Shown here piece after piece: positions 9,696 to 38,177 of a stretch of 64,000 bases of DNA. The notes under the pieces are model-generated. The model had not been told where the DNA came from. It did no database searches and worked only from the letters and a program-made list of their open reading frames with translations. How positions within the stretch are numbered: the first letter of the stretch is position 1; each line of letters begins with the position of its first letter. The position numbers were made by a program, and so were the translations under genes. Origin of the DNA: Marmoricola sp. URHB0036 (lineage in GTDB: Bacteria; Actinomycetota; Actinomycetes; Propionibacteriales; Nocardioidaceae); the NCBI RefSeq assembly GCF_000426045.1, contig NZ_AUEP01000005.1, forward strand, positions 310,001 to 374,000. Direction: 5' to 3'.

Positions 9696-9947
9696 ATGCC
9701 GCTCTACATGGACGTCCACCGCCTCGATGGCGGAGTCAGCGTCGACGATGTCGCCAAGGCCCACATGGCCGACCTGCAGACGCAGGACAAGTACGGCGTC
9801 GACTACCAGCGCTACTGGGTCGACGAGCAGGAGGGGGCCATCTTCTGCCTGGTCGAGGCCCCGTCGGCCGACGCCGCGACCACCGTGCACCGGGAGGCGC
9901 ACGGGCTCGTCGCCGAGGAGATCTTCGAAGTCAAGGAGGGGTCGTGA
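9696..9947 (+). CDS. DUF4242 (SCO4226-like, possible nickel-binding) protein
   Basis: This is an 83-residue DUF4242 protein. Recognisable stretches are MPLYMDVHRLDGGVSVDDVA, KYGVDYQRYWVDEQEGAIFC and HREAHGLVAEEIFEV. The Streptomyces member SCO4226 forms a ferredoxin-like dimer that binds nickel; the histidines here (H8, and H in VHREAH) are compatible, but metal use is not proven. An AAGGAGGAG ribosome-binding site lies seven bases before the ATG at 9696. The stop overlaps the start of the next gene (TGATG), so the two are translationally coupled. It probably belongs to the regulon of the adjacent LAL regulator. Confidence 0.85.
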   Translation: MPLYMDVHRLDGGVSVDDVAKAHMADLQTQDKYGVDYQRYWVDEQEGAIFCLVEAPSADAATTVHREAHGLVAEEIFEVKEGS

Positions 9948-10492
9948 TGCGCGGACGACTGTTCGCCACGGCGCTGGCGGCCGGAGTCGCCCTCTCGGGG
10001 GTCCTGCTCGCTCCACCGGCCACGGCCGGCGTACGCCACGACGTGCACGCCGCTCGCGTCGCCACCCGGCACTTCCAGACGCCGGCCCCGGCGATCAAGC
10101 AGGGCTTCGGCCTGGTGCGGGACAAGAAGGGGATCGCCTGCATCGCCATGCCCGGCATGGGCGCGATGGGCGTGCACTACCTGCTCGGCTCGCGCCTCGA
10201 CGGCACCATCCAGCTGCGCCGGCCCGAGGCCCTGGTCTACCGCTTCGCCCGCAACGGGCACCTGCGCCTGGCCGCGCTGGAGTACCTCGTGCTGCGCGCG
10301 GACTGGGAGAAGGTCCACGGCGCCAACGCACCGCGGCCGAAGCTGTTCGGCCACACCTTCAACCGGACCCTCGCGGGCAATCGGTTCGGCCTTCCGGAGT
10401 ACTACTCCCTGCACGCCTGGGTGTGGAAGCACAACCCGATGGGTCAGTTCACGATGTGGAACCCGCGCGTCTACTGCCCGCCGGGGATCTGA
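9947..10492 (+). CDS. Secreted protein of unknown function
   Basis: This 181-residue protein has a typical signal peptide (MRGRLF, hydrophobic to about residue 22, AxA cleavage after residue 27). The mature part is basic and aromatic: ALVYRFARNGHLRLAALEY, HGANAPRPKLFGHTFNRTL and, near the end, EYYSLHAWVWKHNPMGQF. Cysteines occur only in GIACIAMPG and at the C-terminus (VYCPPGI), so one exported disulfide is possible. I do not recognise the family; the end resembles secreted actinobacterial proteins annotated only as hypothetical. Translation is coupled to DUF4242 through TGATG; a GTG three bases earlier (9944) is an alternative start. A hairpin element (10502-10588) follows. Confidence 0.75.
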   Translation: MRGRLFATALAAGVALSGVLLAPPATAGVRHDVHAARVATRHFQTPAPAIKQGFGLVRDKKGIACIAMPGMGAMGVHYLLGSRLDGTIQLRRPEALVYRFARNGHLRLAALEYLVLRADWEKVHGANAPRPKLFGHTFNRTLAGNRFGLPEYYSLHAWVWKHNPMGQFTMWNPRVYCPPGI

Positions 10493-10501
10493 GGGGGGTG
10501 C

Positions 10502-10588
10502 GGTTTCCCCGGACGTCCGGGGATTCTGTGGGCTGGCAGGCAGAACTTTGCCTGCCAGCCCGTGGTTTCCCCGGACGTCCGGGGATTC
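10502..10588. repeat. Palindrome-hairpin-palindrome intergenic element, copy A
   Basis: Two identical 25-bp copies (10502-10526 and 10564-10588) each hold an 18-bp perfect palindrome with core TCCCCGGACGTCCGGGGA. Between them is a 13-bp perfect stem with a 6-nt loop (10530-10561). The element fills the gap between the convergent secreted-protein and radical SAM genes. A second element with the same layout but different palindrome bases lies at 23865-23953. Confidence 0.85.
10530..10561. terminator. Strong central hairpin of element A
   Basis: GGGCTGGCAGGCA pairs with TGCCTGCCAGCCC around the loop GAACTT. It lies between two convergent genes, so it can stop transcription from both sides. Confidence 0.7.
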
Positions 10589-10596
10589 CCACGCCC

Positions 10597-12534
10597 TCAG
10601 ACGACCGACAGCGGCAGCAGCTGCTGCCCGGTGGGACCGATCTGGATGTCGGTGCCCATCTCGGGGCAGACGCCGCAGTCGTAGCAGGGGGTCCAGCGGC
10701 AGTCCTCGACGTCGATCGAGTCGGGGTCGAGGGCGTCCTCCCAGTCCTGCCAGAGCCAGTCCTTGTCGAGGCCGGAGTCGAGGTGGTCCCAGGGCAGCAC
10801 CTCGTCGTAGGTCCGCTCCCGTGTGGTGAACCACTCCAGCGTCACGCCGTGGGTCGGCAGCACGCGCTCGGCCGCAGCGATCCACCGGTCGTAGGAGAAG
10901 TGCTCGCTCCAGCCGTCGAAGCGGCCGCCGTCGCGCCACACCTGCTCGATGACCCGGCCGACCCGACGGTCGCCGCGCGAGAGGAGTCCCTCGATGATCC
11001 CGGGCTTGCCGTCGTGGTAGCGGAAGCCGATGGCGCGGCCGTAGCGACGGTCGGAGCGCACCTCCTCGCGGAGCTTGCGAAGCCGCTCGTCGGTCGTCTC
11101 CACGTCGAGCTGGGAGGCCCACTGGAACGGGGTGTGCGGCTTGGGCACGAACCCGCCGATCGAGACGGTGCACCGGATGTCGTTGTGCCCCGCGACCTTG
11201 CGTCCCTCGGCGATGACCTTCTTGGCCAGGTCGGCGATCGCCAGGACGTCCTCGTCGGTCTCGGTCGGCAGGCCGCACATGAAGTAGAGCTTCACCTGCC
11301 GCCAGCCGTGGGAGTACGCCGCGGAGACCGTGCGGATCAGGTCCTCCTCGGTGACCATCTTGTTGATCACCTTGCGCATCCGCTCCGAGCCGCCCTCGGG
11401 GGCGAACGTCAACCCAGAGCGACGGCCGTTGCGGGAGAACTCGTTGGCCAGGGTGATGTTGAAGGCGTCCACCCGCGTGCTCGGCAGCGACAACGAGACG
11501 TTGGTGCCCTCGTAGCGGTCGGCCAGCCCCTTGGCCACCTCGCCGATCTCGGAGTGGTCGGCGCTGGACAGCGAGAGCAGGCCGACCTCCTCGAAGCCTG
11601 ACTTGCGGATGCCGTTCTCGACCATGTCACCGATGGTCGAGATGGACCGCTCCCGCACCGGGCGGGTGATCATCCCGGCCTGGCAGAAGCGGCAGCCACG
11701 GGTGCAGCCGCGGAAGATCTCCACGCTGAACCGCTCGTGCACGGTCTCGGCGAGCGGCACCAGCGGGCTGCGCGGGTAGGGCCAGGCATCGAGGTCCATC
11801 AGGGTGTGCTTGCGCACGCGGTCGGGTACGCCGGGACGGTTGGGCGTCACTGCGAGCAGAGCACCGTCGTCGTCGTACGACACGTCGTAGAAGCGGGGCA
11901 CGTAGACGCCACCACTGGCGGCCAACCGCCACAGCAGCTCGTCGCGACCACCTGGCGAGCCCTCGCCCTTCCACTCCCGGACGACCTCGCTGATGGCGAG
12001 CACGATCTCCTCGCCGTCACCGAGGACGACGGCGTCGACGAAGTCCGCGATCGGCTCGGGGTTGAAGGCCGCGTGTCCACCCGCCAGCACGATCGGGTCG
12101 TCCGGGGTGCGGTCGACGGAGTGCATTGGGATACCCGCGAGGTCGAGCGCGTTCAGCATGTTGGTGTAGCCCAGCTCGGTGGAAAACGAGACGCCGAAGA
12201 CGTCGAAGTCTCGTACTGGACGGTGCCCATCCACCGTGAACTGGGGTATTCCGTGCTCTCGCATCACCGACTCCATGTCGGGCCACACGGAATACGTCCG
12301 TTCTGCGAGCAAACCCTCGCGCTCGTTGAGGATTTCATAGAGGATCTGCACACCCTGGTTCGGCAGGCCAACCTCGTACGCGTCGGGGTACATCAACACC
12401 CAACGGACGTCGGCCTCGTGCCACGACTTCTGGACGGAGTTGAGCTCCCCGCCGACGTATTGGATCGGCTTGCTCACTCCCCCGAGGTGGGGTTCGAGCG
12501 TGGCGAAGATCGACTCACCAGTTGAGACGGGCAT
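10597..12534 (-). CDS. B12-binding-type radical SAM protein, TIGR03960 family
   Basis: This 645-residue protein has an N-terminal B12-binding-like Rossmann domain (about 35-190, with MYPDAYEVGLPNQG and VVLGDGEE). The radical SAM core carries the [4Fe-4S] motif CTRGCRFC (C277, C281, C284). A C-terminal Cys-rich patch, CRWTPCYDCGVCPEMG, may bind a further metal cluster. These features match TIGR03960. In most genomes it is immediately followed by TIGR03936; the pair is presumed to act together, possibly on RNA, but the substrate is not established. Here the partner starts about 10 kb downstream at 619. ATG at 12534 is preferred over 12588 (AAAGG eight bases upstream). It is divergent from a histidine kinase gene. 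Confidence 0.88.
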   Translation of the reverse strand: MPVSTGESIFATLEPHLGGVSKPIQYVGGELNSVQKSWHEADVRWVLMYPDAYEVGLPNQGVQILYEILNEREGLLAERTYSVWPDMESVMREHGIPQFTVDGHRPVRDFDVFGVSFSTELGYTNMLNALDLAGIPMHSVDRTPDDPIVLAGGHAAFNPEPIADFVDAVVLGDGEEIVLAISEVVREWKGEGSPGGRDELLWRLAASGGVYVPRFYDVSYDDDGALLAVTPNRPGVPDRVRKHTLMDLDAWPYPRSPLVPLAETVHERFSVEIFRGCTRGCRFCQAGMITRPVRERSISTIGDMVENGIRKSGFEEVGLLSLSSADHSEIGEVAKGLADRYEGTNVSLSLPSTRVDAFNITLANEFSRNGRRSGLTFAPEGGSERMRKVINKMVTEEDLIRTVSAAYSHGWRQVKLYFMCGLPTETDEDVLAIADLAKKVIAEGRKVAGHNDIRCTVSIGGFVPKPHTPFQWASQLDVETTDERLRKLREEVRSDRRYGRAIGFRYHDGKPGIIEGLLSRGDRRVGRVIEQVWRDGGRFDGWSEHFSYDRWIAAAERVLPTHGVTLEWFTTRERTYDEVLPWDHLDSGLDKDWLWQDWEDALDPDSIDVEDCRWTPCYDCGVCPEMGTDIQIGPTGQQLLPLSVV

Positions 12535-12647
12535 GCATGAACCTTTCAGGTTTGGGGGAGACCCAGAGTACGTGTTTGCCCAGAACACCAGTGCTGCCCA
12601 GCATTGTCATGCCTGCTGCTCATGCCCGAGCGTCCAAGGGGGGTCGG

Positions 12648-14576
12648 GTGCGCGACATCGCCATGTCATGGCGTCCTTCCCGACGCCTCTCCACCCGAGC
12701 CATGTGGGTGCTGTGGCTGGTGTGCCTGGTGCTCACTCCCGTGGCGCTGATCCTGCAGGACCTCACCGCGCGGCAGGTCGACGGCGTCGGCTGGATCCGG
12801 GCCGGCGCACTGATCGTCTTCCTGTGGCTGATGCTGGCCTGGCTGTGGCCGGTCCGACCCCAGCGCAGCCGCGTCCTGGCGCTCACCCTGGTGCTCGCGG
12901 TCGTCACCTACGTCCTCACCACCTACCTCCTCGGCTTCGACTGGCTCGAGTCCTCTCGTATCGGCGCGGCGGCCGTGGTGCAGGCGGTGGTCACGCTCGT
13001 CTTCTACCGATGGCGCATCGGTGACGACAACCTCACCCCGCACCGGCCGAGCGACATCGTCGCGCTGTTCCTGGCCAGCGTGGTCGGGGTGCTCGCCGCA
13101 CTGCCGATCGGCCCGGCGCCCGGCATCTGGCTGACCAGCGACGGCTACGACATCTTCGCCTGGGGCACGCTCAGCACCGCCTACATGTTCGTCGGCAGCG
13201 CCTGCGTGATGCTGCTGGTCCAGCGCCGGCCGCGGAGCGAGGCGATCCCCACCCGGCTGTTCGACGTCTACGTGCAGCTGCTGGTGACGGCCGCGTCGCT
13301 GGGCGTCGTGTTCACCTTCAACGACCTGCCCCTGACCTGGATCGTGCTGCTCCCCGCCGTCTGGGCCGGCCTGACGATGGGTCCGTGGACCTCGGCGGCC
13401 TACAGCCTGACAGGCACCCTCGCGGTCGTCTTCGCCCAGACGGTCACCGTGATCAACGCACCGTCGGGCCAGTACGACCTCGACAACATCCTGGTGCTGG
13501 ACAGCCTGATGACGGCCTTCGTGTTCGTGGCGCTGCTGCTGTCGCTCGTCCGCGACCAGCGCGCCTACCTCGCCAACGAGGTCGTCCGTCGACGCCAGGA
13601 GGCGATGGACCAGGCCGGCCTGCTGGGCACCGTCTTCGAGTCGATCAACGAGGCCCTGGTGCTGATGGACACGCTGGGCGTCGTACAGCTCCACAACGCG
13701 GCGGCGGTGCAGATCCTGGGGCGGGACAAGCTCACCACCGAGCCCTCACGCTGGCTGCGCCGGCTGGCCGAGGCGCCCTCGTTCACCTACGGCTTCAACC
13801 GCGACGGGTCCGAGGACGGCCTGCGGATGCTCGCCGTCCAGCTGGCGCGGGTGACGTACGCCGGGTCGGACGGCGTCGTCGCCATCGTCCGCGACGTGAC
13901 CACCGAGCAGCGTCGCATCGAGGAGCTGGCCAGCTTCGCCGCGGTCGCGGCCCACGACCTGAAGAGCCCCCTCACGGCCGTCCAGGGATGGTTGGAGGTG
14001 GCCGAGGACGTGATGGCCACCGACCCGACGATGGCCGCCGAGGCGCTCGAGCGCGGCCGGCACGCCACCGACCGGATGTCGCAGGAGATCGAGGACTGGC
14101 TCACCTACAACGTCGCCCGGGAAGGCGTGCTGCAGCCCGAGCCCGTCGAGCTGCAGCCGGTGCTGGACGCGCTGGTCAAGAACTATCCGGACGTCGACTT
14201 CGTGATCCGCACCCCCGACTCGGTGATGGCCGACCGGACGCTGCTCCAGCACCTGCTGGTCAACCTGGTCAGCAACGCCGCGAAGTACACCCTTCCCGGC
14301 GAACGCCCGTCGGTCACCATCCGCAGCTTCTCCGGCGGGGACCGCGGTTGGGTCCGGCTCTACATCGTCGACGCCGGGATCGGCATCCCGGAGGGCGAGG
14401 AGGCGACCATCTTCGAACCGTTCCGTCGGGCCTCGACCGTCAAGGACAGCTACGAGGGCTCCGGCCTGGGTCTGGCGCTGTGCAAGCGCATCGTGCGCCG
14501 CCACGGCGGACTGATCAGCGCCCAGCGCAACGAGGGACCCGGCACCACGATCACAGTGACGCTCCCCCGGGCCTGA
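12648..14576 (+). CDS. Membrane histidine kinase, first of a paralogous pair
   Basis: This protein has about 642 residues. It contains eight or so hydrophobic segments (15-300) resembling a MASE1-type sensor, a PAS-like region (about 325-420), then HisKA with SFAAVAAHDLKSPLTAVQGW (H436). HATPase_c follows, with NLVSNAAKY and GIGIPEGEEATIFEPF plus the glycine box GSGLGLALCKR. It shares layout and motifs, including IEDWLTYNV after the H-box, with the kinase at 15822. No response regulator gene is adjacent. The open frame begins at 12522 but overlaps the divergent radical SAM gene. GTG 12648 is chosen because AAGGGGGG precedes it; ATG 12609 or 12663 are alternatives. Confidence 0.85.
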   Translation: MRDIAMSWRPSRRLSTRAMWVLWLVCLVLTPVALILQDLTARQVDGVGWIRAGALIVFLWLMLAWLWPVRPQRSRVLALTLVLAVVTYVLTTYLLGFDWLESSRIGAAAVVQAVVTLVFYRWRIGDDNLTPHRPSDIVALFLASVVGVLAALPIGPAPGIWLTSDGYDIFAWGTLSTAYMFVGSACVMLLVQRRPRSEAIPTRLFDVYVQLLVTAASLGVVFTFNDLPLTWIVLLPAVWAGLTMGPWTSAAYSLTGTLAVVFAQTVTVINAPSGQYDLDNILVLDSLMTAFVFVALLLSLVRDQRAYLANEVVRRRQEAMDQAGLLGTVFESINEALVLMDTLGVVQLHNAAAVQILGRDKLTTEPSRWLRRLAEAPSFTYGFNRDGSEDGLRMLAVQLARVTYAGSDGVVAIVRDVTTEQRRIEELASFAAVAAHDLKSPLTAVQGWLEVAEDVMATDPTMAAEALERGRHATDRMSQEIEDWLTYNVAREGVLQPEPVELQPVLDALVKNYPDVDFVIRTPDSVMADRTLLQHLLVNLVSNAAKYTLPGERPSVTIRSFSGGDRGWVRLYIVDAGIGIPEGEEATIFEPFRRASTVKDSYEGSGLGLALCKRIVRRHGGLISAQRNEGPGTTITVTLPRA

Positions 14577-14608
14577 CAGCGCCCGCCGGGCGTCCAGCCA
14601 CCGCTGCG

Positions 14609-14614
14609 TAGGCT
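14609..14614 (+). promoter_or_regulatory. -10 hexamer (TAGGCT) for the antiporter gene
   Basis: TAGGCT ends exactly six bases before the ATG at 14621 and there is no ribosome-binding site, so the mRNA is probably leaderless. Confidence 0.5.
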
Positions 14615-14620
14615 GCGCGC

Positions 14621-15721
14621 ATGAGCGCCGACCCCCACCCGCGACGGCTCAGCTGGACCCGGGTGGTGCCGCCGGTGTCGTTGCTGGCGCTGGTCCTGGT
14701 GTGGGGGCGACACCCCGGCGTGGTCGGCCTCAGCGTCGTGGCCGTCGTACTCGCGGCCGCGGTCCTCGCCGCGGTCCACCACGCGGAGGTGGTGGCCCAC
14801 CGCGTCGGCGAACCCTACGGCTCCCTCGTGCTCGCGGTGGCCGTCACGGTCATCGAGGTCGCGCTGATCCTCACCCTGATGGTCAGCGGCGGCAAGGACA
14901 CCTCGGTGCTGGCCCGCGACACGGTCTTCGCGGCCGTGATGATCACCTGCAACGGCATCGTCGGCCTGTGCCTGCTCACCGGCGCCATCCGGTTCGGCAC
15001 CACCCACTTCAACGCCGAGGGCACCGGCGCGGCCCTGGCCACGGTGGTGACCCTGGCCACCACCTGCCTGGTGCTGCCGGACTTCACCACGACCACGCCC
15101 GGTCCCGAGTTCTCGGGCAGCCAGCTGGCGTTCGTGGCCGTGGCGTCGCTGACCCTGTACGTGATGTTCGTGGTCACCCAGACGGTCAGGCATCGCGACT
15201 TCTTCCTCCCCGTGACCTCCGGCGGAGACCTGCTGGCGGAGGACGAGCACGCCGCGCGCCCTTCGGACCGACGCGCCCTGACCAGTCTCGGACTGCTGCT
15301 CGTCTCGCTCGTGGCCGTGGTCGGGCTGGCCAAGGTCGAGTCCTCGCCCATCGAGGACGCGGTGGCCTCGCTCGGGCTCCCCCAGGCGGTCGTCGGGGTC
15401 ATCATCGCCCTGCTGGTGCTGCTGCCGGAGTCGATCGCCGCGTTCAACGCCGCCCGACGGGGACGCACCCAGATCAGCCTCAACCTGGCCTTGGGGTCCG
15501 CCATGGCGAGCATCGGCCTGACCATTCCGACGATCGCCGTGGCCTCCATCTGGCTCGACGGGCCGCTGCGGCTGGGGCTGGACCCGACGCACATCGTGCT
15601 GCTGGCGCTGACCTCGGTGGTGAGCGTGCTGACGGTGGTCCCGGGCCGGGCCACCCGGCTCCAGGGCGGCGTGCACCTGGTGGTGCTGGCGGCCTTCCTG
15701 GTGCTCACGCTGCAGCCCTGA
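14621..15721 (+). CDS. chaA: Calcium/proton antiporter, ChaA family
   Basis: This 366-residue protein has about 11 hydrophobic segments. The two cation-exchanger alpha repeats are visible: GEPYGSLVLAVAVTVIEVAL near residue 67, with the essential-type glutamate, and LLPESIAAFNAARRGRTQIS followed by NLALGSAMASIGLTIP near residues 265-305. It should exchange Ca2+ (or Na+/K+) for protons across the membrane. It lies between two related histidine kinase genes on the same strand, 44 bp after the first and 100 bp before the second, suggesting that cation or envelope stress is sensed there; that link is inference. The frame starts at ATG 14621 with TAGGCT six bases before. Confidence 0.9.
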   Translation: MSADPHPRRLSWTRVVPPVSLLALVLVWGRHPGVVGLSVVAVVLAAAVLAAVHHAEVVAHRVGEPYGSLVLAVAVTVIEVALILTLMVSGGKDTSVLARDTVFAAVMITCNGIVGLCLLTGAIRFGTTHFNAEGTGAALATVVTLATTCLVLPDFTTTTPGPEFSGSQLAFVAVASLTLYVMFVVTQTVRHRDFFLPVTSGGDLLAEDEHAARPSDRRALTSLGLLLVSLVAVVGLAKVESSPIEDAVASLGLPQAVVGVIIALLVLLPESIAAFNAARRGRTQISLNLALGSAMASIGLTIPTIAVASIWLDGPLRLGLDPTHIVLLALTSVVSVLTVVPGRATRLQGGVHLVVLAAFLVLTLQP

Positions 15722-15793
15722 GAGCCCTTTTTCGACCATTTTGCGCAGTGTCGTAAATAGCCGCAATGTCCAGACGCTGAGGCTGCCGCTCCG

Positions 15794-15799
15794 TACACT
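15794..15799 (+). promoter_or_regulatory. -10 hexamer (TACACT) before the second kinase
   Basis: TACACT lies 22 nt before the ATG at 15822, downstream of a locally AT-richer patch (15722-15770) that includes a TTTTT run after the antiporter stop. Confidence 0.4.
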
Positions 15800-15821
15800 G
15801 ACTGTCAGGGAAAAGGGACAA

Positions 15822-17843
15822 ATGCGACGTGTAGCCGAGACACCAGTGCACGCGCCCTCGCACACCGGTGCCGGCGCGTTCACACCCATGTCCTGGGCAC
15901 AGGCCGCGCCGTACGTCACCTTCGCCGCGGTCTGCTACCTCGCAGCGCCGTACCTCGGCCTGAGCAGCTTCACCGTCGACCACCGCATCGCGGAGGTCTG
16001 GCCCCCCGGCGGTGTGGGCTTCGTGCTGCTCACCACGGTCTGGTGGGCCGGGCGGCGGGTGATCGCGCTGACCCTCGGAGCCATGGCGCTGGTCTTCTTC
16101 GTCTCGGCAGCGCTGATGTGGCACGACCTGCCACCGGCCCTGTGGATGGCGCTGGTCGGGGCCGGCCAGCCGTTCCTGATGGCCTGGCTCTACCGCCGCC
16201 GCCTGAACCACGCCGGGTGGGCGCCGGAGAACCAGCACGACGTCGCGGCACTCCTGTTCGCTGCCGTCAGCTCCTCGCTGCTGCTGGCCCTCGTGGGCGG
16301 CTTCCCGACCCTGAACCCCAACGACCTGCCCACCGCGTTCCTGTGGTGGTGGGTGCTGCGCAACACGGTGTTCTGCTTCGTCGGGGGCGTGACCTTCATG
16401 GTCATGTTCTACGGACCCCGGCACGGCGCCCTGCCGCCCACGTCCTGGCTCAACCGCGTCGGTCTGGTGGTCACGACGTTCGTCTGCGTCTTCGGCAGCT
16501 ACCACGACCCCTCCCTCCCCCTGTCGTGGCTGGTGATCATCCCCAGCGTGTGGGGCGGGCTCACCCTGACCGTCCGGGGCACCGGCTACCTGTGCATCAC
16601 CCTCGCTCTCGCCTCGGCGTCGATGTCCTACTTCCCCCAGAACCAGTTCGGGTACGACGGCGCCTTCCCGGCGTCGTCGATCATGGACCTGCTCGTGATC
16701 GCCTGCACCTCCTTCTTCCTGCTCCTGACGCTGATGCGGGAGCAGCGGGCGGCACTGATCGCCGAGCTCGACCGCAAGGGGGTCGAGTCGGAGAACCAGC
16801 GCCGGATGCTGGAGACCGTGTTCGACTCCATGAGCGACGGCGTCGTCATCGTCGACAACGCCCGGGTCTCGATGTACAACGCCGCCGCCCGGCAGCTGCT
16901 CGGCCGGCCGGTACCGGCCGGCACCCCGGTCTCGTGGGCGGCCGACTTCGGGCTGGCGGCCGCCGACGGCGGTCGGCTCAGCGACACGGTGCTCCACGAC
17001 GCCCTCTGGGTCGAGGCCGGCGACCCTGCGAAGACCCTCCAGGTGCTCGTCGAGAACGACGGCTCCTCACGCACCCTCGACATCACCGCCCAGGCGATCG
17101 GCTCGACCGACGAGCGTTCGACCATGGTGCTGCTGCACGACGCGACCGCCCAGCGCGCGCGCATGCGCGAGCTCAGCAACTTCGCCGGGATGGTGGCCCA
17201 CGACCTGCGTGGGCCCCTGACCGTGCTCGACGGCTGGCTCGAGGTCGTGGAGGACGGCGACCCGGTTACCGACGGCGAGCTGGTCGACGACGCCGTCCGC
17301 AAGGCCCGGGAGTCCAGCCGCCGCATGCGCCAGGTGATCGAGGACTGGCTGAACTACACGGTCGTCCAGAACGGACAGCTGCGTCCGGAGCCGGTGAAGC
17401 TGTTCGGCGTCGCGAGCGAGCTCGTCGACGGTCGCCGCGCCAGCTGGGCCGACGACCTCGAGCCTCAGTTCGACCTCGACCTCGAGCACAGCGTGCTCGC
17501 CGATCCCGGTCTGCTGCGCCAGCTCCTGGACAACCTGGTCGGCAACGCCATCAAGTACACCGCCCCCGACCAGCAGCCGTGGGTGCGGATCAGCTCCCGG
17601 CCTGACGACGAGTCGGGCTGGGTCCGCGTCGAGGTCACCGACCGCGGCATCGGGATCCCCGAGGGTGAGGAAGAGCTGATCTTCGAGGAGTTCCACCGCG
17701 GTCCGCAGGAGGGTCGTTCGGCGGGGACCGGACTCGGTCTCGCGCTGACCCGCCGCATCGTCGCGCTGCACGGCGGACACATGCTGGCGCGTAGCAACCC
17801 CGAAGGCGGCTCGACGTTCCTGTTCACCCTGCCCGAGGCATGA
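15822..17843 (+). CDS. MASE1-domain membrane histidine kinase, second of the pair
   Basis: This is a 673-residue kinase. The N-terminal multi-pass sensor (about 28-305) contains AEVWPPGGVGFVLL (57-70), the tryptophan-proline signature typical of MASE1. A PAS-like segment (325-440) follows, then the H-box SNFAGMVAHDLRGPLTVLDG (H460), then HATPase_c with NLVGNAIKYTAPD, GIGIPEGEEELIFEEF and GTGLGLALTRR. It is paralogous to the protein at 12648 and likewise lacks an adjacent response regulator. ATG 15822 is preceded by AAAAGGGA; the frame extends upstream to 15741 without a better start. Its 3' end nearly abuts the convergent rodA (stop at 17850). Confidence 0.88.
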   Translation: MRRVAETPVHAPSHTGAGAFTPMSWAQAAPYVTFAAVCYLAAPYLGLSSFTVDHRIAEVWPPGGVGFVLLTTVWWAGRRVIALTLGAMALVFFVSAALMWHDLPPALWMALVGAGQPFLMAWLYRRRLNHAGWAPENQHDVAALLFAAVSSSLLLALVGGFPTLNPNDLPTAFLWWWVLRNTVFCFVGGVTFMVMFYGPRHGALPPTSWLNRVGLVVTTFVCVFGSYHDPSLPLSWLVIIPSVWGGLTLTVRGTGYLCITLALASASMSYFPQNQFGYDGAFPASSIMDLLVIACTSFFLLLTLMREQRAALIAELDRKGVESENQRRMLETVFDSMSDGVVIVDNARVSMYNAAARQLLGRPVPAGTPVSWAADFGLAAADGGRLSDTVLHDALWVEAGDPAKTLQVLVENDGSSRTLDITAQAIGSTDERSTMVLLHDATAQRARMRELSNFAGMVAHDLRGPLTVLDGWLEVVEDGDPVTDGELVDDAVRKARESSRRMRQVIEDWLNYTVVQNGQLRPEPVKLFGVASELVDGRRASWADDLEPQFDLDLEHSVLADPGLLRQLLDNLVGNAIKYTAPDQQPWVRISSRPDDESGWVRVEVTDRGIGIPEGEEELIFEEFHRGPQEGRSAGTGLGLALTRRIVALHGGHMLARSNPEGGSTFLFTLPEA

Positions 17844-17849
17844 GCGCGG

Positions 17850-19034
17850 CTACCTCGAGCGAGGCCTGACCGCGCGCGAGACCATGCTGCCGCGCATGGC
17901 GATGTTCTGGAGCAGGCCGACGGCCATCATCGAGGCGAACATGGAGGACCCGCCGTACGACACGAGCGGGAGGGGTACGCCGGTGACCGGCATGATGCCC
18001 AGGCACATGCCGATGTTCTGGAAGGTCTGGAAGGCGAACCAGCAGGCGATGCCCGCGGCCGCGACCCGGCCGAACATGTCATCGGCGTGCATCGAGATGT
18101 GCAGCGCCCGCCAGAGGAGTACGGCGAACAGCAGGATCAGCACGCCGGCACCGATCAGCCCGAGCTCCTCGCCGGCGACGGTGAAGATGAAGTCGGTGTG
18201 CTGCTCGGGGACGAACCGCGAGCGGGTCTGGGAGCCGTCGAACAGCCCCTGCCCGAACAGGCCGCCGTTGCCGATCGCGATCCGCGCCTGCGTGGTGTTG
18301 TAGCCGGCGCCGCGCGGGTCGAGGGCCGGATCGGTGAAGGCCATGAACCGGTTGATCTGGTACTGCTTGAGCACCCCCGCCATGATCGCCATGGTCGCCA
18401 CCGCGCTTCCGACGACGAACAGCGAGACCAGCCAGCGACGCGGGACGCCCGCGACCGCGAGCACGCCGAACACGGTGGCGGTGAGCACCAGCATCGTGCC
18501 GAGGTCGGGCTGCAGGATGATCAGCAGCGCCGGGATGCCGGCGATGACGCCCATCAGCGCGACGTCGACCGCCCCCACCCGTCGCTGGCGGGAGTTCTCG
18601 ACGCGCTCGGCGATGATCATTGCCATCCCGATGACCACGGCGAGCTTGGCGAACTCGGCCGGCTGGATGGAGAGTCCGCCGAGCATCAGCCAGGAGCGCG
18701 AGCCGTTGATCGTCGTACCCATGACGAGGACCAGCAGCAGCCCGATGACGGAGCCGACGTAGACGAGCGGCGTCACGATGCGCACCCAGCGGTGGTCGGT
18801 CGCCATCACTGCCGCCGCGAGCACCAGGCCGATCATGATGTTGACCAGGTGCTTGTGCAGGTAGGCAGTCGAGTCGCCGTGGGTGAGGATCTCGTTGCTC
18901 GAGGTGGCCGACCAGACGAGCAGGGTGCCGATGCCCAGGATCAGGCCGGCGGCGCCGAACAGCACCCAGTCGAGGCGCGGGACGGTGACCCGGCTGCGGG
19001 CGATCGAGAGGCCGCGGATCGGCAGGACCGTCAT
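17850..19034 (-). CDS. rodA: Rod-shape SEDS glycosyltransferase RodA
   Basis: This 394-residue SEDS-family membrane protein has about ten hydrophobic segments. It polymerises lipid II glycan strands in the elongation complex together with PBP2. Family motifs include NGSRSWLMLGGLSIQPAEFAK, LQPDLGT, GNGGLFGQGLFDGSQT, FVPEQHTDFIFTVAGEELGL and, near the end, PLVSYGGSSM. ATG 19034 overlaps the stop of mrdA by one base (TGATG), so synthesis of the polymerase and its transpeptidase is coupled. It closes the mreB-mreC-mreD-mrdA-rodA operon. RodA rather than FtsW is supported by the mre context. Confidence 0.95.
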   Translation of the reverse strand: MTVLPIRGLSIARSRVTVPRLDWVLFGAAGLILGIGTLLVWSATSSNEILTHGDSTAYLHKHLVNIMIGLVLAAAVMATDHRWVRIVTPLVYVGSVIGLLLVLVMGTTINGSRSWLMLGGLSIQPAEFAKLAVVIGMAMIIAERVENSRQRRVGAVDVALMGVIAGIPALLIILQPDLGTMLVLTATVFGVLAVAGVPRRWLVSLFVVGSAVATMAIMAGVLKQYQINRFMAFTDPALDPRGAGYNTTQARIAIGNGGLFGQGLFDGSQTRSRFVPEQHTDFIFTVAGEELGLIGAGVLILLFAVLLWRALHISMHADDMFGRVAAAGIACWFAFQTFQNIGMCLGIMPVTGVPLPLVSYGGSSMFASMMAVGLLQNIAMRGSMVSRAVRPRSR

Positions 19035-21169
19035 CAGTCGTCGTCCTTCCGGGAGGGGGGCAGGATCGAGCCGTCGCGGGCGAAGGTCGGAAGTCCGGAC
19101 GGCGGGACGGTGCCGGGGATGGCGGCCTTCTTCGGGTTCACCTTCTCGCCGTTGATCCCGTAGAGGTGCTCCCAGATCTTGCGCACGGCCGGGCCCGACG
19201 TACCGGAGCCCGTGCCGCCCTGGGTGATCATCATGATCACGACGTAGTCCTTGGTGTACGTCGCGACCCACGAGGTCGTCTGCTTGCCGTAGACCTCGGC
19301 CGAGCCGGTCTTGCCGCGGATCTGCACCTTGTCGAGCGGGAAGCCGCCGAACTTCCACGCCAGGGTGCCCTCCTTGGGAGTCCCCTTGAGCGCGTTGTCG
19401 ACGTACTGCAGCGCGGACTTCTTGGAGTCGATGCGGCGGGAGACCTGCGGCTTGATCTTCTTGATCAGCTTGCCGTCGGGGCTGACGATCGCCTTGGCCA
19501 CCAGCGGCTCCATCAGCTTGCCCCCGTTGGACAGCGCGGAGTAGGCGCGGGCGAGCTGGAGCGGGGTGACCATCGTGTCGCCCTGACCGATGACGAAGTT
19601 GACTGCGTCGCCCTCGTGGTACTTGAAGCCCTCGAGGCAGAACTCGTGGGCGAAGACGTGCAGGAAGTCGCGCTGACCGGTCGTGTTCTTGCGGTCGACC
19701 TTGCAGTAGTAGCCCTTCATCGCCTTCCAGTAGGCGAGCTTCCACTTGCGGTCGGCGATGCGACCGCTGGCGGCGCCGGAGACGTCACCGCCCGGGTCGG
19801 AGCCGAAGCCGAAGTCCTTGGCCTGCGCGACGAGCGGGTCCTTGGCCTTCACGTTGTCGGGGTCGGTGCCGTACTTCGACCAGAAGTGCAGGCCGACGCG
19901 GTAGAAGAAGGTGTCGCAGGAGAGCTCCAGCGCCTTGGCGAAGGTGATGTTGCCGTAGGCCGCGGACTCGTAGTTCTTGAACCAGCGGTTGCCGACCTGG
20001 AGCCCGGAGGAGCAGTTCAGCTCGGTGTTCTCCGACATGCCGTTGTTGAGCGCGCCGACGGTCATGATCGGCTTCCACGTCGACCCGGGTGCGAACTGGC
20101 CCTGGGTGGCGCGGGAGAGCAGCGGGTCGCCGGCAGCGTCGCTGTAGAGCTTCTTCAGCTCCTTGGTGCTGATGCCGCCGGACCAGACCTCGGGGTCGTA
20201 CGTCGGCTGGCTGGCCATCGCGACGATCCGGCCGGTCTTGGGGTCCATCACGACCGCGGCGCCGCTGTCGGCGGCGTAGTGACGATGGGTCACCGGGTCC
20301 ATCGTCCCGCGGGCGGTCATCATCGCCTGGTGGAGCTGCTTCTCCACGTAGGACTGGACGTCCGCGTCGATCGAGGTCACCAGGGTGTCCCCCGGCGTCG
20401 ACTTGATCTCGCCGGAGTCGCCGAGCACCCGGCCCATGGAGTCGACCGCGACCTTCTTGTAGCCGGGCTTGCCACGCAACCACTCGTCGTAGGACTTCTC
20501 GACGCCAGCGCGGCCGACCACCGAGGCGCCGTTGACGGAGTCGTCTTCGTTCTTCTTGGCCTCGTCGAGCTCGCCCTCCGTGATCGGGCTGAGGTAGCCG
20601 AGCACGTGGGCACCGTTGACGTCGAAGGGCGAGGGATAGGCGCGCACGCTCTCCTGCTGCGCCAGCACCCCGGGGTAGTCCTCGGACTGCTCGAGCAGCT
20701 TCACCGCCACCTTCTGCGGGACGTCTCGCGCCACCGGCACCGGCTGGTAGGGCGAGCCGTTCCAGCAGGTGCCCTTCTTCGAGTCCGGCTGGCCGCAGAG
20801 CAGGGTGCGGGCGGTGATCTTCGCGTAGGGCACCTTCACCACGCGCGCCAGCTCCTTCAGCGTCGCCTCGCGCTTGGCCTCGGGGAGCTTGCTGACGAGG
20901 GTGCGGTCGATGCTGACCACCCAGCTGCTGCGGTTGGCGACGAGCGGGCGACCCATGTCGTCGACGATCAGCCCACGGGCCGGCTGTACGACGACGTCGC
21001 GCACCGACTGCTCGGCGGCAGCGGCGCGGTAGCCCTCGCCCGTGAGCACCTGCATGTACCAGAGCCGGGCGAACAGAGTGAGGAACAGGGCGAGCACCAT
21101 GGCCTGGACGACGAACAGCCGCAGACGGCTCTTCTCCGAGGCGTTGGGCCGGATGAGAACGGCGGCCAT
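19034..21169 (-). CDS. mrdA: Penicillin-binding protein 2 (elongation transpeptidase)
   Basis: This 711-residue class B PBP has a single N-terminal membrane anchor (about 17-35) and a PBP dimerisation/pedestal region (60-260). The transpeptidase domain carries SxxK at 363-366 (STWK), SxD at 417-419 (SCD) and KTG at 620-622. It cross-links peptidoglycan during lateral growth with RodA. Six cysteines outside the catalytic centre (for example C125, C135, C489, C511) are more than usual and may form extracellular disulfides. The start is the ATG of MAAVLIRPNASEKSR, a few bases after mreD. It belongs to the mre operon. Confidence 0.95.
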   Translation of the reverse strand: MAAVLIRPNASEKSRLRLFVVQAMVLALFLTLFARLWYMQVLTGEGYRAAAAEQSVRDVVVQPARGLIVDDMGRPLVANRSSWVVSIDRTLVSKLPEAKREATLKELARVVKVPYAKITARTLLCGQPDSKKGTCWNGSPYQPVPVARDVPQKVAVKLLEQSEDYPGVLAQQESVRAYPSPFDVNGAHVLGYLSPITEGELDEAKKNEDDSVNGASVVGRAGVEKSYDEWLRGKPGYKKVAVDSMGRVLGDSGEIKSTPGDTLVTSIDADVQSYVEKQLHQAMMTARGTMDPVTHRHYAADSGAAVVMDPKTGRIVAMASQPTYDPEVWSGGISTKELKKLYSDAAGDPLLSRATQGQFAPGSTWKPIMTVGALNNGMSENTELNCSSGLQVGNRWFKNYESAAYGNITFAKALELSCDTFFYRVGLHFWSKYGTDPDNVKAKDPLVAQAKDFGFGSDPGGDVSGAASGRIADRKWKLAYWKAMKGYYCKVDRKNTTGQRDFLHVFAHEFCLEGFKYHEGDAVNFVIGQGDTMVTPLQLARAYSALSNGGKLMEPLVAKAIVSPDGKLIKKIKPQVSRRIDSKKSALQYVDNALKGTPKEGTLAWKFGGFPLDKVQIRGKTGSAEVYGKQTTSWVATYTKDYVVIMMITQGGTGSGTSGPAVRKIWEHLYGINGEKVNPKKAAIPGTVPPSGLPTFARDGSILPPSRKDDD

Positions 21170-21183
21170 CTCAGGCGGTCACC

Positions 21184-21696
21184 TCAGTAGGCCAGTTCAG
21201 CCGGTCGGGTCCGCTCGAACAGCGCCATCAGTCCCGGCAGCAGGAGCGGCGTCATCACCACGTCCCAGAGCAGGGCGATGCAGATGACCTGCATCATCTC
21301 CCCCGTCGGCAGGGCGTGGTCACCGAGCACGATGCCGGTGAGTGCGAACACCGAGGTGGCCACGAACGAGCAGACGGCCACCGTGGCCAACCCGGCCAGC
21401 GGACTGCGTCGCGCGTCGGTGCGCACCCGTCCGGCGAGCACGGCGATCAGCACGAAGGCGAGCGCCCAGCGGCCGGCCACGTGGTCGGCCGGCGGAGCGA
21501 GGTCGAGCAGCAGGCCGGCGAAGAAGCCGACAGTTGCTCCGAAGGCAGGACCGCGGGCGATGGCGGCAGCCACCACCACGATCAGGGCGAGGTTGGGAAC
21601 CACTCCGTTGACCGAGAAGAGGCTGAATACCGCTGTCTGCAGGGTCACGGCGAGTACGACGAGAAGGGCCACGAGACCGGTGCGCGAGACGTTCAC
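21184..21696 (-). CDS. mreD: Rod shape-determining protein MreD
   Basis: This 170-residue protein has about five hydrophobic segments and little else, which is typical of MreD, the small membrane partner of MreC. VNGVVPNLALIVVVAAAIARG and GFFAGLLLDLAPP fit the family. The GTG at 21696 overlaps the mreC stop by four bases (GTGA), making translation coupled. A much longer open frame to 21900 lies within mreC and was rejected. MreD has low conservation, so the call rests on topology and operon position. Confidence 0.9.
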   Translation of the reverse strand: MNVSRTGLVALLVVLAVTLQTAVFSLFSVNGVVPNLALIVVVAAAIARGPAFGATVGFFAGLLLDLAPPADHVAGRWALAFVLIAVLAGRVRTDARRSPLAGLATVAVCSFVATSVFALTGIVLGDHALPTGEMMQVICIALLWDVVMTPLLLPGLMALFERTRPAELAY

Positions 21697-22658
21697 CTGG
21701 TCTCCCCCTGACCATTGATCACGAGTCGGTCTCCCTGGGTCTTGCGGGGTACGACGACCCCGACGACATCGAGCGAGGTGAAGTCGACGAACGGGTCGAT
21801 GACGGCGTGCTTGGCGAGCTCGCGCGGCGTGGAGTACACCGACTCGACCTTGCCGATCGGGATGCCCGCGACGTACGGCACGCCGTTCTGGCTGCCCCAC
21901 GTCACCACCACGTCACCCTCGGCCGGCGTCACCGAGTGGTCGACGAGGTCGAGCCCGAGCCGGCTGCGCTCGCTGGTGACGCCGCGGCCACGCAGGAAGC
22001 CGATCTCGTTGTTGGAGCCGAGGCGTCCGCCGACGACCGAGTCGGTGTCGACGATGAGCAGCACGTCGGCCGTCGAGCGGGTCACGCTGATCACCCGGCC
22101 GACGAGGCCGTCGTTGTTGAGCACCGTCATGTCCTTGTGGATGCCTGAGGAGGTGCCGGCGTCGATGGTGACGGTGCGCGAGAAGGACTGCATCGGCCCC
22201 ATGCCGACCACGCGGGCCGCGACCAGGGCGTAGCCGGTCTGGTTGGCGGTGGTGGTCAGCCCGTCGAGCTCGGCCAGCCGGTTGCGGTCGAGCGGTGCCT
22301 GCTCGACCTGCGAGCGCAGCTTGGAGTTCTGCGCCGCGAGCTTGGCCACGTCGTCACGCAGGCGGTCGTTGGAGCTGAAGTAGGCGAAGGTCTCGCGCAA
22401 GGGTCGGACGGCGTTGGCGGTGCCCGACTCGACCGGGCCGATGACGTTGCCCACGAGCGAGCGCGCGGGGTCGACGGGTGAGGAGTCACCGCTCGCAGCG
22501 TCGATCGTGATCACCCCGAGGGACGCAGCCACGAGCACCCCGATGACCACCTTCGAGGAGCGTCCGCGGTCACGGCCGAAGCCGCCGCGGCCGCCGTCAT
22601 CGGTGACGGGGCGACCCAGCGAGGGCCCCTTGACGTTGCGGAGTCGTTGGTTGGCCAC
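21693..22658 (-). CDS. mreC: Rod shape-determining protein MreC
   Basis: This 321-residue protein has a short basic N-terminus rich in Gly/Arg, one membrane segment (about 34-55), a coiled-coil region (85-125, with LRDDVAKLAAQNSKLRSQVE) and a beta-rich periplasmic-side domain. That domain includes DGLVGRVISVTRSTADVLLI and VVTWGSQNGVPYVAGIPIGKV, typical of MreC. It links MreB filaments to the extracellular synthases. The start is GTG at 22658, three bases after the mreB stop, and the end overlaps mreD by four bases. Confidence 0.94.
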   Translation of the reverse strand: MANQRLRNVKGPSLGRPVTDDGGRGGFGRDRGRSSKVVIGVLVAASLGVITIDAASGDSSPVDPARSLVGNVIGPVESGTANAVRPLRETFAYFSSNDRLRDDVAKLAAQNSKLRSQVEQAPLDRNRLAELDGLTTTANQTGYALVAARVVGMGPMQSFSRTVTIDAGTSSGIHKDMTVLNNDGLVGRVISVTRSTADVLLIVDTDSVVGGRLGSNNEIGFLRGRGVTSERSRLGLDLVDHSVTPAEGDVVVTWGSQNGVPYVAGIPIGKVESVYSTPRELAKHAVIDPFVDFTSLDVVGVVVPRKTQGDRLVINGQGETR

Positions 22659-22661
22659 CGG

Positions 22662-23687
22662 CTACCGCCTGTGGTCCGCGACGAGCACCTGCTGCAGCGC
22701 CTCGAACTCCTCGACGCACTTGCCGGCGCCCAGGGCGACCGACGTCAGCGGGTCGGAGGCGATGTGGACCGGCATGCCGGTCTCGTGGCGGATGCGCTCG
22801 TCGAGGCCGAGGAGCAACGCTCCTCCGCCGGTGAGCACGATGCCGCGGTCCATGATGTCGCCGGCCAGCTCGGGTGGCGTCTGGTCGAGGGTGGTGCGTA
22901 CGGCGTCGACGATCGCGTGCAGCTGCTCCTCGATCGCCCGCCGGATCTCGGGGCTGGAGACGGTGACGGTGCGCGGCAGGCCGGAGACCATGTCGCGACC
23001 GCGGACCTCGGCCTGGCGCTCCTGGGGCAGCGGGAAGGCGGAACCGAGGGTCATCTTGATCTCCTCGGCGGTGCGCTCCCCCAGCATCAGGGAGTGCTCC
23101 TTCTTCATCCACGCCACGATGGCCTGGTCGAGCTCGTCGCCGGCGGTGCGCACCGAGAGGGTCGTGACCAGGCCACCGAGCGAGATCACGGCGACCTCGG
23201 TGGTGCCGCCACCGATGTCGACGACCATGTTGCCGGTGGCCTCGTGGACCGGCAGCCCGGCACCGATGGCCGCGGCCATCGGCTCCTCGATGATGTAGAC
23301 CCGGCGGCCACCGGCCTGGTAGCCGGCCTCCTTGACCGCCCGCTGCTCCACGGCGGTCACGCCGCTCGGCACGCAGATGATCATCCGGGGCTTGGCGAAG
23401 TAGCGGCGCCGGTGCACCTGCTGGATGAAGTGACGCAACATGTGTTCGGTCGCGTCGAGGTCCGCGATGACGCCGTCCTTGAGGGGACGGATCGCGGTGA
23501 TGCCGTCCGGCGTACGACCGATCATGCGTTTGGCCTCGTGGCCGACGGCCAGGATCTCGTGGGTCTGCTCGTTCATGGCGACCACGGAGGGCTCGTCGAC
23601 GAGCACGCCCTTGCCACGCACGTAGACCAGTGTGTTCGCCGTACCTAGATCCACCGCCATGTCGCGGCCGATGAGACTGTTGGCCAT
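22662..23687 (-). CDS. mreB: Rod shape-determining actin homologue MreB
   Basis: This 341-residue actin-fold ATPase forms membrane-associated filaments that position wall elongation. Nucleotide-binding motifs are visible: MAVDLGTANTLVYVRGKG (phosphate 1), MVVDIGGGTTEVAVISLGG (phosphate 2) and GIVLTGGGALLLGLDER (adenosine). ATG 23687 is preferred over the longer frame to 23744; GAGGCGAACCGG precedes it and the protein then begins MANSLIGRDMAV like other MreB proteins. It is the first gene of the elongation operon. The 273 bp upstream, to ndk, hold its promoter and repeat element B. Confidence 0.96.
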   Translation of the reverse strand: MANSLIGRDMAVDLGTANTLVYVRGKGVLVDEPSVVAMNEQTHEILAVGHEAKRMIGRTPDGITAIRPLKDGVIADLDATEHMLRHFIQQVHRRRYFAKPRMIICVPSGVTAVEQRAVKEAGYQAGGRRVYIIEEPMAAAIGAGLPVHEATGNMVVDIGGGTTEVAVISLGGLVTTLSVRTAGDELDQAIVAWMKKEHSLMLGERTAEEIKMTLGSAFPLPQERQAEVRGRDMVSGLPRTVTVSSPEIRRAIEEQLHAIVDAVRTTLDQTPPELAGDIMDRGIVLTGGGALLLGLDERIRHETGMPVHIASDPLTSVALGAGKCVEEFEALQQVLVADHRR

Positions 23688-23864
23688 CCGGTTCGCCTCG
23701 CAGGGTGCATCGATGGGGGAAGAGGTACGACACATGCGCCTCACCTGTCACAGCAGACTAGGAGCGAAACGTCCAGTTCCCGCGACGACACGCGGCGCAG
23801 CCAGGGCTGCGGTTTGCGCCGGGAGACCTCCGGCTACCCCGGGCGATGGACGAGCGGTGGCGGC

Positions 23865-23953
23865 GGTTTGGCCGGGCGCCCGGCCGTTCTGGCAGTGGAG
23901 GGGTGAAATTTCGCCCCACCAGTGACAGTTTGGCCGGGCGCCCGGCCAAACTG
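23865..23953. repeat. Palindrome-hairpin-palindrome intergenic element, copy B
   Basis: The left palindrome GGCCGGGCGCCCGGCC (23870-23885) is flanked by GGTTT and GTTCTG. The right one is a perfect 28-bp palindrome (23926-23953) with the same 16-bp core. Between them is an imperfect hairpin (23893-23924, two mismatches and one G-U in 16 pairs). It lies eight bases beyond the ndk stop. Relative to copy A, the left palindrome differs by compensated base pairs. Confidence 0.85.
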
Positions 23954-23960
23954 CACCCGC

Positions 23961-24371
23961 TCAGCTGAGCTCGGGGAACCAGAGCTTGATCTCCCGGGCG
24001 GCGGACTCCTCGCCGTCAGAGCCGTGCACGAGGTTCTCGCGGTTGGACAGTGAGAGGTCGCCGCGGATGGTGCCGGGAGCGGCCTTGCGCCCGTCGGTGG
24101 CGCCGTTGATCGCGCGCACGACCTCGATGGCCTCGTCGCCCTCGAGCACGGCGGCCACGAGCGGCCCGCTGGTCACGAAGTCGCGCAGGGGCGGGTAGAA
24201 GTCGCGGTCCACGTGCTCGGCATAGTGCGCGTCGGCCTGGGCGGCGTCGATGTGTCGCAGCTCGAGGGCGACCACATCCAGCCCCTTGGACTCGAAGCGG
24301 GACAAGATGGTGCCGACCAGCCCCCGTCGTACGGCATCGGGCTTGAAGAGGACCAGGGTGCGCTGCGCCAT
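23961..24371 (-). CDS. ndk: Nucleoside diphosphate kinase
   Basis: This is a 136-residue enzyme of usual length that transfers the gamma-phosphate between nucleoside tri- and diphosphates through a phosphohistidine. The active-site motif NLVHGSD carries H116; TLVLFKPDAVRRGLVG at the N-terminus and GPLVAAVLEGDEA are family signatures. The start is ATG 24371, with TAGGGT (24379-24384) seven bases upstream and no ribosome-binding site, so it is probably leaderless despite lying 14 bp after the MFS gene. Repeat element B follows the stop and may act as its terminator. Confidence 0.97.
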   Translation of the reverse strand: MAQRTLVLFKPDAVRRGLVGTILSRFESKGLDVVALELRHIDAAQADAHYAEHVDRDFYPPLRDFVTSGPLVAAVLEGDEAIEVVRAINGATDGRKAAPGTIRGDLSLSNRENLVHGSDGEESAAREIKLWFPELS

Positions 24372-24378
24372 GGCGCAC

Positions 24379-24384
24379 ACCCTA
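24379..24384 (-). promoter_or_regulatory. -10 hexamer (TAGGGT) for ndk
   Basis: TAGGGT with a 7-nt gap to the ATG at 24371, in the 14-bp space after the MFS stop. This fits a leaderless transcript. Confidence 0.5.
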
Positions 24385-24385
24385 G

Positions 24386-38104: not shown

Positions 38105-38177
38105 TCGGGGCGACAGGACTCGAACCTGCGGTCTCCTGCTCCCAAAGCAGGCGCGCTAGCCACTACGCTACGCCCCG
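38105..38177 (-). tRNA. tRNA-Pro (TGG anticodon)
   Basis: A 73-nt cloverleaf without encoded CCA. The acceptor stem CGGGGCG pairs with CGCCCCG, with discriminator A at 38105. The anticodon arm CCTGC-TTTGGGA-GCAGG has TGG at 38142-38144, and the T arm carries GGTTCGAGTCC. It lies 46 bp upstream of tig on the same strand. Confidence 0.95.

Follow-up and report, generated by a model that had tools for sequence, protein, structure and literature searches.

Introduction

Repeats that resemble repetitive extragenic palindromic (REP) sequences occur in many bacteria. The enzyme tied to them is RAYT, a Y1 transposase, and a large number of REPs are situated downstream of coding regions (PMC3733652). 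In Pseudomonas fluorescens there are several subfamilies of REPINs (REP doublets forming hairpins), each beside its own RAYT (PMC8049555, PMC3116915). The RAYT gene has one or a few copies, next to the repeats, and is frequently inherited at the same place (PMC8049555). In TIRYTs a RAYT gene stands between long terminal inverted repeats (PMC3733652). Here we describe two palindrome-hairpin-palindrome elements, starting near positions 10502 and 23865 of a 64-kb stretch of DNA from Marmoricola sp. URHB0036 (contig NZ_AUEP01000005.1, positions 310,001 to 374,000; this whole stretch is called the window), and the repeat system to which they probably belong. In that system matching repeats bracket a gene, the product of which is predicted to join an AbiEi-like DNA-binding region to a Vsr-type nuclease domain.

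According to the accessible part of a survey of palindromic repeats from 2013, the phyla with tagged families do not include Actinobacteria, and one large class has no dedicated transposase; untagged REP-like families are noted in Mycobacterium tuberculosis among others (PMC3733652). RepRanger counted REP-like sequences in three Actinomycetota species, and the accessible part of that paper names neither Nocardioides nor a linked gene (PMC12306157). Two further families are related through the protein. AbiEi proteins bind inverted repeats of 23 bp, and two of them, when tested, did not bind each other's sites, as far as the accessible text goes (PMC7319586). MTES_1575 is described as a restriction endonuclease (REase) of the Vsr fold and as part of a large fusion protein (PMC3710099).

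In general there is a clear resemblance between the present system and REPIN-RAYT systems: inverted doublets of a conserved 16-bp end form one hairpin and are dispersed and extragenic (46 of the 77 palindromes described below stand in doublets), a genome holds several subfamilies, and the gene is present in one or few copies, often inherited in place and flanked by its own repeat subfamily, although it is a different gene. The palindromes are spaced by 62 bp, compared with 71 bp between the 16-mers of the GI REPINs of P. fluorescens (PMC3116915). The differences lie in the gene, which combines an AbiEi-like region with a predicted Vsr-type nuclease, and in the units, which are about 95 nt long with a 24-bp palindrome and commonly stand alone with a tail of their own. 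Further, the GTAG tag is not apparent by eye in the consensus, for which no dedicated scan was made. A search of 24 genomes of the genus for the Y1 (HUH) transposase family PF01797 gave 0 with a match (control matches in 5 of 14 named genomes), and RAYT was rejected as the driver.

TIRYTs are alike in that one gene lies between long inverted repeats that also form a moderately abundant genomic family (PMC3733652), while the enzyme here is unrelated and a Y1 domain was not found in it. The CGTC-tagged REPs are also short palindromic repeats, and TGTC or CGTC forms the end of the tails here, which is no more than a loose resemblance; those REPs are 20-40 bp long and come from five phyla, Actinobacteria not being among the ones named in the accessible part of the survey (PMC3733652). 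Our best reading is a mode of operation like that of REPIN-RAYT, in which an unrelated nuclease takes the part of the Y1 transposase.

Results

Dispersed families of palindromic repeats

Both window elements are copies of a dispersed repeat, one from its subfamily A and the other from its subfamily B. When their own genome (4.83 Mb in 22 contigs) was searched, the two elements gave 49 and 50 DNA matches, both strands counted. A pattern for the palindrome box, with one mismatch allowed, occurs 89 times per strand, versus 0 for the reversed control. The sequence-only reading had described the palindrome-hairpin-palindrome layout at both sites and had offered a mobile structured repeat as one explanation. 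The layout is present (Table 1), the repeat is structured, multi-copy and of mobile look, and with 89 boxes in the genome the outcome that only two copies exist is ruled out.

Three subfamilies are distinguished by the palindrome core: A, to which the element at 10502 belongs, B, with the element at 23865 (both cores are given in Table 1), and C, with the core CCCCGGGCGCCCGGGG. The alignment comprises 53 elements, the two of the window included, from 47 fetched stretches, over 64 gapless columns, and is a subset of the copies in the genome. Among the 77 palindromes with a hairpin, 46 stand in doublets and 31 are single units; two hairpin-less palindromes (L061 at 2509 and L063 at 2512, 0-based starts) are left out of this set. 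Single units of A and C have a conserved tail, TTTGTCC, that fades past about 95 nt; the version of the genus genome G008 is TTCGTCC. The placement is extragenic, with one palindrome overlapping a called gene. Several of the subfamily C units at L029:2396, L035:2662, L036:1305 and 4860, and L057-L062 have poorly paired central hairpins.

Folded as a whole, each window element gives a single long hairpin that lies 9.3 to 13.0 standard deviations below its shuffles, and both strands fold strongly. The palindrome starts are 62 bp apart in both.

Within the genus the box pattern was found in 6 of the 24 genomes, with 58 boxes in G000, 34 in G008 and 1 to 3 in four others. The commonest form in G008 is GTTTCCCCGGTCGACCGGGGAAAC; the fetched stretches contain one centre in 27 exact copies. 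Thus, the palindrome varies by species and the layout is constant. In a pattern scan of named genomes, the 80 loci listed are all from Nocardioides, Pimelobacter or Marmoricola.

A gene bracketed by matching units

In G000 (for A and for B), in G008 and in one named Nocardioides metagenome genome, one gene lies between single units that face each other at a distance of about 1.2 kb. The G000 gene at C17:26526-27470 has subfamily A boxes on its two sides and the one at C4:198778-199716 subfamily B boxes, while G008 has a palindrome of its own that brackets its homologue. The gene has about 316 codons (317 amino acids in the subfamily A copy of G000, L239), and the bracketed proteins are 46-58% identical to the first one. 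Another gene between two G008 boxes 1.2 kb apart (L064), which we take to be protease-like, was dropped as a bracketed gene, as these boxes are not an inverted end pair.

From its sequence, the gene product is predicted to be an AbiEi-like region fused to a PD-(D/E)XK (Vsr-type) nuclease domain. The N-terminal part matches the PADLOC AbiEi model in 26 of 26 proteins at E<=0.1 and Pfam AbiEi_4 in 23 of 26 at E<=1, the first member falling below the cut-off of the latter. In this respect it is like the type IV AbiEi antitoxins; it differs from them in the fused nuclease-like domain, and no second gene was called in the three copies read, in which AbiEii was not the target of a dedicated search.

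The evidence for the nuclease domain comes from seven related proteins that were scanned, two of which pass curated cut-offs (L238 for REase_MTES_1575, L238 and L235 for DUF559). The alignment of their group with the family extends over 283 columns and has a probability of 99.9%. The residues E204, D237, E248, D250, G251 and K254 are invariant in all 26 proteins and are consistent with a predicted PD-(D/E)XK site. Alignment A3 leaves out L233 to L239: L234 to L238 are distant, L233 is split and the start of L239 is called short. REase_MTES_1575 differs in that it is described within a large fusion protein (PMC3710099), and a bracketing repeat family is unreported for it in the literature searched. 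The PADLOC Zorya HNH model gave weak matches in 6 of the 26 proteins. On plasmids, the nuclease finds matches in seven of 72,556 records, at 28-32% identity, one of them annotated as an AbiEi family antitoxin.

Bracketing in the genus and the phylum

A homologue is present in 22 of the 24 genus genomes at 1e-20 and, in the phylum search, in 8 of 296 genomes at 1e-40, the own genome included. Flanking inverted repeats with E<=1e-6 were found at 24 of 30 homologue loci of the genus. For the phylum the corresponding number is 11 of 14 loci (other genera, families and one other class; the own-genome copies L287 and L295 are left out). Shuffled flanks gave 0 of 440. Four of the 80 named loci listed contain a homologue (1e-15); two of these are testable and both have a repeat pair, the other two being at a stretch edge. 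The association of the repeats with the nuclease gene is well supported.

As a control we used 413 called genes of 600-1500 bp from 40 windows of G002 and G009, 15 of which have a pair at E<1e-4. At E<1e-10 there are nine, all homologues, six from the core family and three from a divergent branch; as the windows were chosen for palindromes or homologues, this rate is not genome-wide. With four loci shared by the two sister species, the nine genes represent about five independent loci. The divergent branch aligns by profile to the family with 97.3% probability and to the DUF559-like group with 98.4%. Its genes with strong inverted palindromic brackets in G002/G009 are L263:8000-8809 (-), L272:9525-10490 (-) and L280:970-1779 (+), for which there are no Pfam matches above cut-off.

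In G237, which belongs to another genus, the end sequence of the homologue matches 65 times genome-wide, both strands and the query counted. Over five orthologous groups with 14 loci, the identity between the two ends of a copy is 0.71-0.94, while the same end is 0.49-0.75 identical between species, except for 0.91 and 0.89 in one of the two groups of the sister pair; the orthologous pairs L233/L245 and L237/L238 are left out of this comparison. Since identity is higher within a copy than between species, the two ends change together.

G002, G009 and G008 share a second homologue, orthologous among them, that is bracketed by a second palindromic family (the GATTACCCGGACGTCCGGGTAATC type, at the ends of L240, L241 and L242). 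Palindromes of this type are also found in G008 at L070:2551, L072:989 and L090:1786.

History of individual sites

The presence of elements differs between species. In a search for orthologous elements between G000 and G008 few neighbours were shared, about as many as expected from the sampled fraction (a rough estimate and not a computed control), and orthology was rejected. The sister species G002 and G009, which are about 91-95% identical over syntenic windows, have many elements at corresponding places, as judged by eye. Directly past one stop codon G009 has an 87-bp palindrome-plus-hairpin element that is absent in G002.

Two convergent genes flank the gene-bearing copy of subfamily B in G000. 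The best match by neighbouring protein is in G013, where two stops are three bases apart at that site and there is no element, while in G000 element sequence replaces the last codons of one neighbour. The nuclease gene is at this site in G000 only, among 22 orthologous loci read. In some of the others the orthologous spacer contains unrelated hairpins (G014 and G006), and in G008 a gene-less unit of that genome's own type. At another site the gene L054:2303-2551 (+), presumably encoding a small membrane protein, terminates inside an element, so the insertion replaced its last codons.

A few other sites should be mentioned. At L276:9748-10203 G009 has three tandem palindromes with a period of about 227 bp, where G002 has two with a 62-bp period; this is a locally amplified array. 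What by eye appears to be the 3' end of the same gene (protein ending HMIHM) has elements of different types in L066 (G008) and in L265/L286 (G002/G009), and may be a hot spot of insertion. Another gene, again by eye, has an element at its 3' end in G000, G008, G002 and G009 (L026, L089, L262 and L280), with three different palindromes among them. In four large insertions of G009 relative to G002, palindromic ends were not seen by eye.

Compensated changes lie between subfamilies

The sequence-only reading had compared the 27-bp left segments of the two window elements and had found seven differences that keep the pairing, a pattern to be expected, in that reading, if structure and not sequence is selected. 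The differences, at positions 6, 7, 12, 15, 20, 21 and 22, and their pairing are as claimed. The pairing is genuine, with 83-85% of cells in a paired state versus at most 58% after sliding, and over all 53 aligned elements double-changed cells are in excess (215 versus 107.6 in shuffles). The excess, however, lies between subfamilies only: within subfamily A (20 elements) there are 2 double-changed cells versus 12.0 in shuffles, and within subfamily B (23 elements) 9 versus 12.3. The overall excess is due to few differences between subfamilies. As the two window copies belong to different subfamilies, founder differences were taken for compensated changes, and selection of structure rather than sequence is not supported.

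In subfamily A the palindrome sequence is the most conserved part, with 7 of 10 palindrome pairs invariant, so the power to see covariation there is low. In subfamily B the covariation score of 0.086 is above that of the slid versions (0.039-0.067) and below the shuffle mean (0.098). RNA structure under selection was rejected as the main cause. Judging from the alignment, we favour a conserved palindromic DNA sequence that is swapped wholesale between subfamilies, which would fit better than structural selection with free sequence. Among the three options considered earlier (mobile repeat, terminator or attenuator, protein-binding sites), the last comes closest; the nuclease-like gene that goes with the repeats is not visible from the window.

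Position relative to genes

Most palindromes lie just behind genes. The outer end is at most 25 nt past the stop of a gene reading toward it in 50 of 77 cases, versus 7.9% of random intergenic positions at the same loci. The distance from stop to end, individual values of which may err with the simple gene caller, has its mode at 8 to 10 nt, with 23 of 59 stop-facing ends. In the window it had been proposed that both elements lie right after a stop codon. Both do adjoin one at such a distance (Table 1): element 1 is flanked by two convergent stops and element 2 has a stop on one side only, with a gene start 178 nt away on the other. The genes beside element 2 are, as we take it from their sequences, ndk-like and mreB-like.

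A scan for terminators with a U-tract over 9900-24500 gave three terminator-like sites (3.2 expected), none at either element. The signal of a GC hairpin followed by a T tract is absent at both, which speaks against the earlier proposal of a terminator or attenuator family, and an identity as U-tract intrinsic terminators was rejected. Rfam at the gathering threshold matched two tRNAs in the window and neither element.

Table 1. Features of the window. Positions are those of the whole 64-kb stretch; genes were called with a simple codon score, and individual distances may therefore be inexact.
Feature	Position	Strand	Remarks
Subfamily A palindrome, element 1 left copy	10503..10526	+	core CCCCGGACGTCCGGGG; one side degenerate, GTTT...ATTC
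Element 1 central hairpin	10530..10561	+	13-bp stem
Subfamily A palindrome, element 1 right copy	10565..10588	+	62 bp from left copy
Subfamily B palindrome, element 2 left copy	23866..23889	+	core GGCCGGGCGCCCGGCC
Element 2 central hairpin	23893..23924	+	
Subfamily B palindrome, element 2 right copy	23928..23951	+	perfect 24-bp palindrome GTTT...AAAC
Gene before element 1	9947..10492	+	stop codon 10 nt from element 1
Gene after element 1, convergent	10597..12534	-	stop codon 8 nt from element 1
Gene, ndk-like (presumed name)	23961..24371	-	stop codon 9 nt from element 2
Gene, mreB-like (presumed name)	22662..23687	-	start faces element 2 from the other side
tRNA gene	38105-38177	-	
tRNA gene	38216-38286	-	

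Discussion

We consider it probable that the window elements are gene-less copies of a selfish (or domesticated) repeat system of two parts, palindromic units and an AbiEi-like/nuclease gene that drives their spread. The first part is a unit of about 95 nt in which a hairpin follows a 24-bp palindrome; subfamilies A and C add a tail that ends near TTTGTCC. The unit occurs singly or as a palindrome-hairpin-palindrome doublet that folds into one long hairpin. The second part is the gene of about 316 codons between two inverted units, with its AbiEi-like DNA-binding region and predicted Vsr-type nuclease.

The AbiEi-like region would recognise its own palindrome, either as double-stranded DNA or as a hairpin. 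It is a good candidate reader because AbiEi antitoxins bind 23-bp inverted repeats cognately (PMC7319586). The nuclease would cut at its own palindrome, host repair or replication would copy the unit into new sites, and copies would survive chiefly in short spacers just past stop codons. It is in this sense that we infer that the nuclease moves the repeats; binding, cutting, copying and a spread driven by the protein belong to the proposal, while the families, their positions, the bracketing of the gene, the joint change of its two ends and the variable presence among species are observed.

A number of points weigh against this reading. No movement of an element was observed. We know of no lone PD-(D/E)XK nuclease that joins strands, so host functions must be assumed. 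For the C-terminal nuclease domain a convincing Pfam match is lacking in the core family, and a PDB sequence search with the 26 proteins gave 0 matches. The bracketed gene has no match to a known transposase family, though inverted repeats are present, in a survey that did not extend to other transposases of the genomes.

The repeat test at 1e-6 fails at 6 of the 30 genus loci (L223, L230, L233, L235, L238 and L246) and at 3 of the 14 phylum loci (L298, L299 and L301). L233 is a split gene, the outer flanks of which do carry a repeat pair; for L235 the flank window was misplaced, the locus being cut short, and with the gene placed correctly there is still no repeat pair. At 18 of 30 gene loci a flanking gene is common to a locus of another species, so the nuclease gene is often inherited in place. 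As far as the own genome was searched, subfamily C has no copy that bears the gene; its driver may have been lost or may come from the divergent nuclease branch. The 87-bp difference between G009 and G002 fits gain and loss alike, as a single polymorphism could be a loss. At one clean presence/absence site there is at most a possible target-site duplication of 3 bp, TGA, which is inseparable from the element sequence.

Several of these points would also be expected if the repeats were miniature inverted-repeat transposable elements moved by an unrelated transposase, or were spread by recombination or gene conversion, with the gene as a passenger or as a host protein that binds or processes them. 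The lack, to our knowledge, of DNA joining by PD-(D/E)XK nucleases alone, the frequent inheritance of the gene in place and subfamily C without a gene-bearing copy all favour such an account. Against it, strong matched end pairs among the 413 control genes are found on nuclease homologues only, the pairing recurs across the phylum with unrelated end sequences, and Y1 transposases were found in none of the 24 genomes. We regard it as unlikely.

A role at transcript ends, as bidirectional RNA terminators or 3'-end stabilisers under structural selection, would agree with the strong folding on both strands and with the many palindrome ends that lie just past stop codons, most often by 8-10 nt. However, double changes inside subfamilies A and B are not above shuffles, the palindrome is kept as sequence and the U-tract is absent. 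Such a role also leaves the bracketed gene, the tail and the species-specific palindromes without explanation. As the origin of the elements it is improbable, but it could be a secondary use. Copies may persist in short spacers past stop codons, and their hairpins may have acquired a part in ending transcripts.

Least credible of all, and very improbable, is that the gene serves as a type IV (AbiE) antitoxin or in defence, with the palindromes as its operators and dispersed regulatory sites: the AbiEi models do match every one of the 26 proteins, one of the seven plasmid matches is annotated as an AbiEi family antitoxin and AbiEi autoregulates via inverted repeats (PMC7319586), but the three gene-bearing copies read have no second called gene between their repeats, most of the dispersed ends lie just past stop codons and a nuclease-like domain is fused on.

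Returning to the two-part repeat system, we lean slightly towards a more general form of it, in which the Actinomycetota contain, across the phylum, intragenomic replicators where a PD-(D/E)XK (Vsr-type) nuclease with AbiEi-like binding, and not a transposase, recognises and multiplies its own palindromic families. Such replicators would parallel REPIN-RAYT by convergence, and in each species nuclease and palindrome would co-evolve. In the literature searched, which did not cover most subscription journals or ISfinder, a nuclease bracketed by such repeats is unreported.

In several actinobacterial families matching repeats bracket a predicted nuclease, unlike RAYT. If this nuclease drives the repeats, cutting and host repair would suffice to copy a repeat family. 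Further, if the replicator reading is true, it could explain some genes annotated as AbiEi antitoxins that have no toxin partner, and these would need renaming. Finally, a single genome with several palindrome subfamilies, two of them bracketing their own gene, provides ready test pairs for the co-evolution of protein and DNA.

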